Assembly (NCBI GenBank): GCA_030016635.1 | Contig: JASEJQ010000008.1 | Coordinates: forward strand, 1-51,821 | Length of the DNA stretch: 51,821 nucleotides | Direction of reading: 5' to 3' | From: Thermoanaerobacteraceae bacterium | GTDB taxonomy: Bacteria; Bacillota; Thermoanaerobacteria; Thermoanaerobacterales; UBA4877 | Shown here: piece by piece, positions 24,384 through 40,399 of the stretch | How the letters are laid out: each line of letters opens with the position of its first letter | How positions within the stretch are numbered: position 1 is the stretch's first letter | Position numbers and translations under genes: made by a program | The notes under the pieces: model-generated | Told to the model about the DNA's origin: nothing | Seen by the model: the letters and a program-made list of their open reading frames with translations, nothing else | Database searches by the model: none

Positions 24384-24427
24384 AAAAGTTAAAATAGAGA
24401 GGGTTATTCCCTCTCTATTTTAACTTT
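24384..24427 (-). terminator. Terminator behind alaS
   Basis: A long stem of AGTTAAAATAGAGAGGG with its complement overlaps the last codons of alaS, followed on the minus strand by TTTTTAATTTT. It would partly separate alaS from ireB. Confidence 0.88.
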
Positions 24428-27048
24428 TCTTCAATATATCTCCGGCACACGTCGAAGGCTTCTTCTATTTTAGACCTGTCCTTGCCACCGCCCTGGGCCA
24501 TATCGGGTCTTCCTCCTCCGCTCCCATTTAAGATGGCGGATACCTCTTTTATAATATCTCCAGCCTTTATACCTTTATCTATAATATCCTGTGTAACACT
24601 TGCCACGAGGTTTACCTTATCATCCTCTATGCCGGCTAATAGTATGACACCCGACTTTAATCTTGTTTTCAACATGTCATTTAAATCCCGGAGGTCTTTA
24701 TTTGTATAGGCATCAAGCTTGAGTGTCAAAAGTTTTACTCCATAAACATCAACTGACCTCTTAATGTATTCCTCAGCAGATATGCTCATCAGCTTTTGCT
24801 TTAATGCTTCTATCTCTCTATCCTTATCTTTTAGCAAATTTACCATTTCGTTTACCTTGTTTTCTACATCACTCTCTCTGATCTTAAGAAAATTTGCAAT
24901 GCTTGATACTATATTTTTATACTCGCTTAAATACGCATATGCTCTTGGCCCTGTATATGCCTCAATCCTTCTCAGGCCAGCACCTATTGCGCCTTCAGAA
25001 ACTATCTTGAATATACCTACCTCAGATGTATTCTTAAGATGTGTGCCACCGCAAAGTTCCTTGCTGTAGTCTCCCGCTTTAACCAGTCTTACCACATCAC
25101 CATATTTTTCAGAGAAAAGAGCCATGGCACCCATCTTCTGTGCCTCTTCCAAGGTAGTTTCCTCAACAGCCACTGGAAGAGCCTCATATATCTTTTCATT
25201 CACCTTTTTCTCTATCTCCTCGAGCTGTTCATAAGTCAAACCCTGGTAATGAGAAAAATCAAATCTCAGGTACTCAGAAGTCACAAGAGAGCCAGACTGA
25301 TGTACGTGTTCACCCAGCACCTCTCTTAAAGCCTTATGGAGAAGGTGAGTAGCAGTATGGTTTCGTGCCGTATTCATCCTGAGGCTTTTATCCACCTCAG
25401 CACCTACCATATCACCAACACTTACCATACCCCTCTTTATCTTCCCTATATGGATATATTTATTTAATGCCTTCTTGCAATCTGAGATAACTATCTCTAC
25501 ATTGTTGTTGTATAATACACCTCTGTCTCCTACCTGCCCGCCGCTCTCAGCATAAAACGGGGTTACATCCAGCAGCACCCCTACCTCTTCTCCGTCTGAA
25601 GCGCTTGAAACCAGTTCCCTATCCTTAATTATAGCAAGCACACGTCCTTCGGCTTTTAATGTCTCATATCCAACAAATTTCGTATTATAGAGCTTTAATT
25701 CTTCCATGAGGGCATCGTTGGCCCAAAGTGAACTATCCTCAATCTTATTTGCCCTGGCCCTCTCTCTCTGGATGTTCATTTCTCTGTTGAAGCCTTCCTC
25801 ATCTACCTCTATACCCTGTTCCTCCAGTATCTCTTTTGTAAGGTCAAGTGGAAATCCATAGGTGTCATATAATTTAAAGGCATCCACTCCCGATAAAGTT
25901 TTTTTACCTTCTTCTTTCAGCCTATCTATATATAGCTGCAGTTTGCTGATACCCTGGTCTACGGTCTCGTTAAACCTTTCTTCCTCAAGTCTTACAACCT
26001 CCTTAATATATCCAAGCCTAACCGTCAGCTCAGGATATACACCTCTATAGGTCTCAGCTACGCTGTCAACAAGTTTGTAAAGGAAAGGGTCATTCAGTCC
26101 CAGGAGTTTACCGTGTCTTGCAGCTCTCCTTAAAATTCTCCTTAATACATAGCCCCTACCCTCATTGGATGGCAGTATTCCATCACCTATCATAAACGTT
26201 ATGCCCCTTATATGGTCTGTAATCACCCTGATACTGACATCCTTTTTGGGGTCTTCATTGTATTTAGTACCACTGACCTTTAGTACACTATCCATTATTC
26301 TCTTAACCACATCGACCTCAAAGATGTTATCCACACCCTGCATAATAGCTGCAATCCTCTCAAGCCCCATACCGGTATCTATATTTGGATGAGCCAGTCT
26401 GTTATAATTGCCTGCTTCATCCTTATCAAACTGCGTAAAGACAAGGTTCCAGAACTCCATAAACCTGTCGCAGTCACAACCCGGCGCACAGTCGGGCTTA
26501 CCGCAGCCTTTTTCTTCTCCTCTGTCGAAATACAGTTCAGAGCACGGACCACATGGGCCAAGCCCTATCTCCCAGAAATTGTCCTCCTTGCCCATCCTAA
26601 CTATTCTTTCTGCAGGAACACCAACTACCTTATTCCATATCTCAAATGCCTCATCATCATCCTCATATATAGTCACCCAGAGTTTGTCTTCAGGAAGTTT
26701 AAGCCACTCTGTAGCAAATTCCCATGCCCACGGTATGGCGCTCTCTTTAAAATAATCCCCAAAAGAGAAATTCCCCAACATCTCAAAAAATGTAGCGTGT
26801 CTGGCTGTCTTACCTACTCTTTCGATATCCGGCGTCCTGATACACTTCTGGCATGTGGTCACCCTTTTCCGAGGTGGTATTTCCTTACCGGTAAAATAGG
26901 GCTTCAGTGGGGCCATACCTGAATTTATCAGGAGAAGGCTTTTATCATTATGAGGTATAAGAGGAAAACTCTTTAGCCTGAGATGCTCTTTGCTCTCAAA
27001 AAAACTTAAAAACTTTTCCCTTATTTCGTCCATTGACATCCATTCCAT
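24415..27048 (-). CDS. alaS: Alanyl-tRNA synthetase
   Basis: The 877-aa class II synthetase charges tRNA-Ala. The catalytic core begins with [33 protein letters not shown] marks the zinc-binding editing domain, with CGGTH completing it; the C-terminal coiled coil and DHHA1-type end ([15 protein letters not shown]) are complete. The ATG at 27048 lies seven bases after AGGAGG. Expression is controlled by the T-box leader just upstream, responding to uncharged tRNA-Ala. Confidence 0.98.
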
Positions 27049-27075: not shown

Positions 27076-27306
27076 AAAAAAGCCCCTAAAACACAATGTT
27101 TTAGGGGCGAGGGTTCCCGTGGTACCACCCTATTTGCCATACGGCCTCTTATCTGTTAACGGATAATCCCGGCACCGGTTACTATAATTTCCCCGGTGCA
27201 GCTCAGAGACGGCGTTCGATAGGTATGCCGGAAACTTTCACCAACCGCTTCCTCTCTAAAGGTCATAGAGCTATCTACTCTTTCTCTTCATAGCTTTTAG
27301 TAGTGA
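27076..27306 (-). ncRNA. T-box leader of alaS
   Basis: The conserved antiterminator bulge sequence AGGGTGGTACCACGGG is present (RNA sense), followed by terminator GCCCCTAAAAC/GTTTTAGGGGC and a U-run. Upstream are an AGTA-type loop (AAGAGTAGATAG), the distal GGTTGGTGAAAG loop, and the specifier strand GAACGCCG flanked by helices GATAG/CTATC and AGAGA/TCTCT. The codon GCC (plus-strand 27211-27213) reads alanine. Uncharged tRNA-Ala would stabilise the antiterminator and let alaS be transcribed. Confidence 0.93.
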
Positions 27307-34548: not shown

Positions 34549-34752
34549 CATGTCATATAACATCCAAGGCAGCCTTAAAGCGAGTCTATGATACTCTTAA
34601 TGAGTGGCAAATGTAGCCAGGGCAGCAGGCAAGGACGCCTGTTGAGCCGATACTGAGGCATGGACGCCGAATAGAGGCGTATCCGGCGGAATGCAGAGAC
34701 GAATCTTAGAGTATCAAGACGAACGCCCAGGTACCGGGATGTTATTGACAAG
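34549..34752 (-). repeat. Dispersed structured repeat, copy D
   Basis: This copy lies in inverted orientation relative to A-C. Read on the minus strand, it starts GTCAATAACATCCCGG, contains GGGCGTTCGTCTTGATACTC, TTCCGCCGGATACGCCTC, ATTCGGCGTCCATGCC, an AGCAGGC/GCCTGCT hairpin and CATTTGCCACTCATTAAGAG, and ends GGATGTTATATGACATG. Arms TAACATCC and GGATGTTA pair perfectly. It lies between the DUF3048 gene and threonine aldolase. Confidence 0.8.
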
Positions 34753-36664: not shown

Positions 36665-36857
36665 TAAAAAAACTCCCCACGGTGCCGATCATTGAGTGGT
36701 TGTTGAACCTGTTCTCTCACAGGTGGGTGCCCTCCTGACTGCCGCACATTTCCACTCTAAGGAGGCTTATGTTTGGGCAACCAGAGTCCAGGCCCCTTTA
36801 TATTGGTGTTGGCCCAATATCTCACTCAACTCCCGAACACTGCAGGGTCTTTCTTCG
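36662..36857 (-). ncRNA. ssrS: 6S RNA
   Basis: The minus-strand transcript of about 195 nt folds into one long rod. CCCTGCAGTGTTCG and GTTGAGTG at the 5' end pair with CACTCAA, CGGCACC and GTGGGG at the 3' end. A large central bubble follows, then an upper arm with GGACTCTGG/CCAGAGTCC-like pairing. The 3' end runs into TTTTTTT. Location directly behind aspS matches bsrA (6S-1 RNA) in Bacillus. 6S RNA traps sigma-A RNA polymerase by mimicking an open promoter. Its own promoter is at 36864-36892. Confidence 0.85.
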
Positions 36858-40107: not shown

Positions 40108-40362
40108 TATACAAATACCCCCGTCCTCGGCTTACTCTGCCAGGGACGGGGGTTACCCGCGGTGCCACCCTGATTGGTTTTACCCAACTCGGTTTAAATA
40201 ACGCAGAAAATGCGTACAGACCTACTATAACCTTCGGCCTGTAAACTCCCGGGTGTCTTTCACGAATAACTGCTGCCTGAAAGGACTCTCAGTCACGGCC
40301 CCTTCTCCCTGTAGGTAATTATCCGTTACTCTCCCGTTCATAGTTTTTCTCTGTAGTTAAGT
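40108..40362 (-). ncRNA. T-box leader of hisS-aspS
   Basis: The antiterminator element AGGGTGGCACCGCGGG is followed by a CCCCCGTCC/GGACGGGGG terminator stem with a weak U-run. Upstream, helix ACGGATAA/TTATTCGT and helix CGGG/CCCG frame an internal loop whose 3' strand is GAAAGACAC. That strand contains GAC (Asp; plus strand 40255-40257) and CAC (His; 40253-40255), overlapping by one base. This could let the leader sense either tRNA, matching the two genes it controls. Confidence 0.9.
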
Positions 40363-40370
40363 TATTATAT

Positions 40371-40399
40371 ATAATAATCGATATCCTCCATATTGTCAA
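40371..40399 (-). promoter_or_regulatory. Promoter of the hisS-aspS T-box
   Basis: TTGACA (40399-40394), a 17-bp spacer and TATTAT (40376-40371), just upstream of the leader and 19 bp past the stop of the MBL-fold gene. Confidence 0.85.

Follow-up and report, generated by a model that had tools for sequence, protein, structure and literature searches.

A hisS-aspS T-box leader with overlapping Asp and His codons, of a known kind and most likely Asp-responsive

Where the genes for histidyl- and aspartyl-tRNA synthetase stand behind a single leader, the question arises which uncharged tRNA that leader answers to. The case examined here lies in a stretch of 51,821 nucleotides from a Thermoanaerobacteraceae bacterium, which is called the window below. 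The specifier strand of its hisS-aspS leader contains both GAC (Asp) and CAC (His), and the preliminary description of this DNA suggested that the leader may answer to either tRNA by a shift of the codon register. Our analysis indicates that the leader is of a known kind and most likely Asp-responsive.

Leader anatomy and the specifier strand

The leader matches the Rfam covariance model RF00230 over its full length with a score of 118.4 bits (E 1.1e-25), exceeding the gathering score of 93 bits, and the two genes downstream on the same strand are identified by TIGR00442 and TIGR00459 (Table 1), which bears out the earlier assignment of a T-box before hisS-aspS. The genes overlap by 8 bases, the start of aspS lying inside the end of hisS. 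Stem I with its AGTA/GAA specifier loop, the antiterminator with UGGN and the terminator are shared with the RF00230 T-box, and the differences amount to normal variation only. The terminator hairpin excludes the antiterminator, with which it shares bases 40152-40142; it is absent from a simple terminator pattern scan because of its T-poor tail. The promoter-like sequence upstream of the leader is weak by itself, with a chance expectation of about one per stretch.

Table 1. Leader elements and operon genes, in window coordinates.
Feature	Positions	Strand	Basis
Promoter-like TTGACA - 17 nt - TATTAT	40371..40399	-	pattern scan, 11/12 matches
T-box leader	40139..40350	-	RF00230, model 1-219
Lower stem I helix, 5' arm CGGG	40333..40336	-	fold and sequence
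AGAGTA, specifier loop left side (AGTA motif)	40327..40332	-	RF00230 alignment and sequence
Upper helix, 5' arm ACGGATAA	40319..40326	-	fold and sequence
Upper helix, 3' arm TTATTCGT	40262..40269	-	fold and sequence
Specifier strand GAAAGACA, unpaired in fold	40254..40261	-	fold and sequence
GAC, Asp codon, canonical specifier frame	40255..40257	-	RF00230 alignment
CAC, His codon, +2 frame	40253..40255	-	sequence and fold; C40253 is the first paired base of the lower helix
Lower stem I helix, 3' arm CCCG	40250..40253	-	fold and sequence
Antiterminator region AGGGTGGCACCGCGGG...CCCCCGTCCCT	40142..40171	-	RF00230 alignment and sequence
UGGC bulge, complementary to GCCA (G73) of tRNA-Asp	40164..40167	-	RF00230 alignment and tRNA comparison
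Terminator hairpin CCCCCGTCC.../GGACGGGGG	40118..40152	-	-34.0 kcal/mol, z -3.6
hisS, histidyl-tRNA synthetase, 424 aa	38765..40039	-	TIGR00442, 515 bits
aspS, aspartyl-tRNA synthetase, 593 aa	36991..38772	-	TIGR00459, 826 bits

On the minus strand, positions 40263-40246 read GTGAAAGACACCCGGGAG, and the specifier strand between the helices is GAA-A-GAC-A-CCCG, in which GAC and CAC share C40255 and are offset by two bases, as had been described. Both helices named in the preliminary description exist in the sequence and appear in the minimum-free-energy fold of stem I, where the unpaired GAAAGACA is bordered by ACGGATAA/TTATTCGT (eight pairs, one of them G-U) and CGGG/CCCG. The covariance-model alignment that had been proposed as a check sets the RF00230 consensus GAAauucaCCcu against GAAAGACACCCG of the window, and therefore places GAC at the specifier position (uuc in the consensus); the following A is the conserved base after the specifier and the C is the first helix base. 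At the place of the window's CAC, the consensus too reads c-a-C. In the model fold the opening cost is 0.3 kcal/mol for GAC and 3.7 kcal/mol for CAC, the latter because C40253 is paired. As a discriminator the cost of the +2 codon failed, since its median in presumed His-only leaders (1.74) is similar to, and not lower than, that in overlapping leaders (2.06).

The GAC predicted as specifier in the canonical frame matches the downstream aspS. The tRNA-Asp of the window's genome ends in GCCA (G73), and the tRNA-His of a sister genus in CCCA (C73) with a genome-encoded G-1, so that UGGC fits tRNA-Asp. Among the tRNA loci read in the window's genome, four long places of 84-88 bases excepted, there was no tRNA-His gene, which probably reflects an assembly gap.

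We consider it probable that this is a standard transcription-attenuating T-box whose ligand is uncharged tRNA-Asp. The tRNA would pair through its anticodon GUC with GAC in the canonical frame and through its free 3' GCCA end with the UGGC bulge, and the antiterminator would thereby be held, allowing polymerase to pass the hairpin into hisS-aspS. This reading draws on the observed anatomy, frame and discriminator match and on the comparative statistics given below, from which we infer both the ligand and the switching of the leader. The +2 CAC would offer tRNA-His no more than a weak, secondary site, where binding is possible after the first helix pair opens; the presence of this CAC follows from the T-box consensus of a C-ending codon, then A, then a helix whose first base is C.

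Frequency of the overlap in control leaders

As controls we parsed 87 non-hisS leaders from 101 loci of the window's genome and 12 other genomes. The parsing was done by script and is uncurated, with leaders scoring below 8 removed before the count; one leader before a metS-like gene (L380) was read one base off. The canonical frame yields family-typical specifiers in these leaders. Where the canonical specifier ends in C, the +2 frame contains CAC or CAU in 32 of 54 leaders (CAC in 25), a figure that counts one ATC leader twice, as L358 and L344 have two core matches each with the same specifier. The window's genome alone gives six of nine such controls, four of them with CAC, at Ile, Cys, Thr and Pro specifiers. 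An asnS leader of another genome (L383 of G417) contains AACAC, where no His role would be claimed.

The T-box itself is beyond chance and the GAC/CAC overlap is not, because the T-box consensus alone yields CAC or CAU at this rate. T-boxes favour a C-ending specifier, then A, then a helix that begins with C or U, so that a +2 His codon taken alone is not evidence. This provides a yardstick for claims of overlapping codons: a +2 His codon is to be expected in about six of ten leaders with a C-ending specifier.

Two further observations concern T-boxes of these genomes. In G417, AACAC occurs in two leaders, that of asnS and that of hisS-aspS (L154), presumably in different reading frames. The window holds a second T-box at 27100-27300 (-) with 139.7 bits, specifier GCC and UGGU, upstream of alaS (24415-27048).

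hisS-aspS leaders in other genomes and competing readings

We examined 243 hisS loci (30 + 80 + 53 + 80), of which 153 could be read as T-boxes, 89 were without a T-box core and one (L077) fell in neither class; for poorly scored leaders the states were set by eye from the sequence, after which the presence of the five-mer and of UGGN upstream of the gene was checked. An aspS gene lies downstream of hisS at all 153 T-box loci. GAC is kept in 106 leaders, as GACAC in 51 and as GACAU in 20, and 35 are without a His codon (GACCU 9, GACAA 8, GACGC 5, GACUU 5, GACCC 4, GACAG 2, GACGA 1, GACGU 1). The 47 leaders without GAC always have AAC, reading AACAC in 44 cases and AACAU, AACAA and AACGC in one case each.

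An unlikely alternative, though well short of negligible, is dual specificity: tRNA-Asp would read GAC, tRNA-His would read CAC once the lower helix opens at its first pair, and shortage of either would raise both synthetases. It is consistent with a single leader serving two genes, the second starting within the end of the first, and GAC and CAC are present as overlapping codons that match the tRNAs of the operon's products. Among the GAC leaders, however, CAC or CAU occurs in 71 of 106, with no excess over the 32 of 54 controls that would indicate conservation beyond the T-box consensus (Fisher p=0.38), and in 12 of the 47 families or singletons having GAC leaders it is absent from those leaders. 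A family of the window's order (f2, 18 leaders) comprises 14 GACAC and four GACGC leaders, and within one genus GACCC (L172) stands against GACAC (L168). In six families some GAC leaders have a His codon and others lack it; six mix GAC and AAC leaders. An A follows GAC in 81 of 106 leaders and the specifier in 33 of 54 controls (p=0.06), a result that we counted against the reading as an Asp sensor.

An excess is found in the leaders without GAC, 45 of which keep CAC or CAU (p=1e-5 against controls, with rows treated as independent though related; 19 of 21 by family or singleton). This favours dual specificity and counts against a purely Asp-directed view, since it indicates that CAC can matter in this operon. 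Because 47 leaders have lost GAC and 45 of them keep the His codon, hisS-aspS leaders seem, to judge from their codons, to fall into three forms: Asp-only, His-only and overlapping. Only two of the 153 lack both GAC and a His codon at the usual position (L165 and L282, with AACAA and AACGC). A quick HisRS tree of the 153 rows implies no fewer than 18 changes of GAC and 14 of CAC/CAU, and independent contrasts on this tree were significant neither for GAC against CAC/CAU (median p 1), which weighs against dual specificity, nor for GAC against UGGC (median p 0.625). The apparent rule that the two codons are rarely lost together is therefore suggestive only.

Of the earlier either-tRNA proposal, the presence of both codons is borne out, and a shift to tRNA-His may occur, given that 45 of the 47 leaders without GAC retain CAC or CAU. 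An equal standing of the two codons is not supported: GAC is canonical and unpaired and CAC requires the first lower-helix pair to be opened, UGGC fits G73 of tRNA-Asp, the frequency of CAC after GAC does not exceed that in unrelated T-boxes, and CAC has been lost in species of the window's order.

A related and doubtful scenario takes GACAC as a working dual sensor and an evolutionary hinge, from which lineages would repeatedly have settled as Asp-only (GACGC, GACCC, GACCU, GACUU, GACAA) or His-only (AACAC or AACAU, with relaxed UGGN), a single substitution or insertion changing the sensed tRNA without loss of operon control; the present leader would still be overlapping. Should dual reading prove correct, a single riboswitch would keep two synthetases in balance, and the operon would offer a natural series, from Asp-only through overlapping to His-only, for a change of riboswitch ligand.

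The UGGN bulge bears on these readings unevenly. It is UGGC in 65 and UGGU in 41 of the 106 GAC leaders, both of which can pair with G73, and never UGGA or UGGG. Leaders without GAC have UGGC (25), UGGU (13) or UGGA (9). Since UGGC is also found there, it does not exclude tRNA-His, and the discriminator mismatch alone was dropped as grounds for exclusion, as UGGC, UGGU and UGGA all occur in the presumed His-only leaders and UGGG never does. UGGA, present in nine leaders of family f88, cannot pair with G73 and is used by a dedicated His leader (L438, described below), which supports a His reading of these nine and at the same time means that UGGN says little about tRNA-His. TBDB, according to the available part of PMC7778990, disregards the discriminator for His.

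It is very improbable that the present leader reads tRNA-His alone through CAC, with GAC accidental. Such a reading agrees with hisS being the first gene, with the homologous Bacillus-like, f88 and Staphylococcus-like leaders that keep only CAC, and with the S. aureus operon leader being called a histidine T-box (PMC7927825, accessible part), which accords with the GAACAC seen in family f147; here, however, GAC occupies the canonical frame, UGGC pairs with tRNA-Asp, and close relatives keep GAC where CAC is lost. In the f147 leaders (L258-L263, inferred to be Staphylococcus-like) GAACAC directly adjoins the lower helix and a clear AGTA motif is missing; one of them, L259, has a weak RF00230 score of 66 bits.

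The least probable reading, barely credible in our view, makes AAC an Asn codon in lineages where AspRS also charges tRNA-Asn, the family varying between Asp and Asn and CAC being irrelevant: AAC does occupy the canonical frame, AACAC also precedes asnS in G417, and the two leaders without GAC and His codon read AACAA and AACGC, but among the genomes tested AsnRS was found in 12 of 16 of the AAC type against 11 of 19 of the GAC type, opposite to what this reading predicts, and the UGGA of the nine f88 leaders, shared with the dedicated His leader, cannot pair with G73 of tRNA-Asn. The Asn reading was rejected as unsupported by AsnRS presence. In the two genomes whose leader has neither GAC nor a His codon, AsnRS was found once.

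Relation to described T-boxes

The reading as an Asp sensor has a precedent in print. In the available parts of PMC5313534, a specifier loop with GACAC is described as a hallmark of hisS-aspS T-boxes, and Gutierrez-Preciado et al. 2009 are reported to have suggested that it interacts mainly with tRNA-Asp; a passage of PMC4342826, citing the same work, suggests that this T-box can sense both tRNAs, a point in favour of dual specificity. The statement in the preliminary description that overlapping specifiers had already been proposed for this operon is thus correct, and with GACAC and a possible dual reading both in print the finding is already known in kind. The published GACAC T-box belongs to the same operon in another genome, and the excerpts contain no difference from ours; those of PMC2494555 and PMC7583486 have nothing on the GAC/CAC overlap. 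TBDB considers frames -1, 0 and +1 only (PMC7778990, in part), so a +2 codon would go unlisted. The present analysis adds the control level for the overlap and the count of single-codon forms, and among open-licence papers we found no such count in print.

In the two-codon T-box of Clostridium acetobutylicum the codons are reportedly shifted by a single base, against two here. That Asn/Glu leader (Saad et al. 2013, in the available text of PMC4052509) likewise has two overlapping codons in one specifier strand, and its reported two-codon reading favours dual specificity; both tRNAs were shown to bind there.

For leaders under His control, a convincing T-box was found in none of the best 30 hisZ loci, and the comparison used hisS leaders of plasmid-borne histidine-decarboxylase clusters instead. 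The one from L. reuteri (L437) gave no T-box match. The dedicated His T-box of a Tetragenococcus plasmid (L438) also has CAC in its specifier strand, in the canonical frame (GUCACA, then UCUA) and with UGGA, unlike the present leader with CAC in the +2 frame and UGGC; its canonical placement of CAC argues against dual specificity here. A histidine response is reported for the L. buchneri relative (PMC5313534, in part).

Several Bacilli hisS-aspS leaders (L130, L132, L145, L146, L197, L245 and others) carry a variant T-box core that reads UGGNAACRCG instead of UGGNACCRCG. Within the window, a 6S RNA (36670-36851, minus strand, 67.9 bits) lies directly downstream of aspS, and a TwoAYGGAY RNA match (34575-34729, plus strand, 49.7 bits against a gathering score of 43) lies on the opposite strand from its two neighbouring genes, one of which encodes a GntG-type PLP aldolase.
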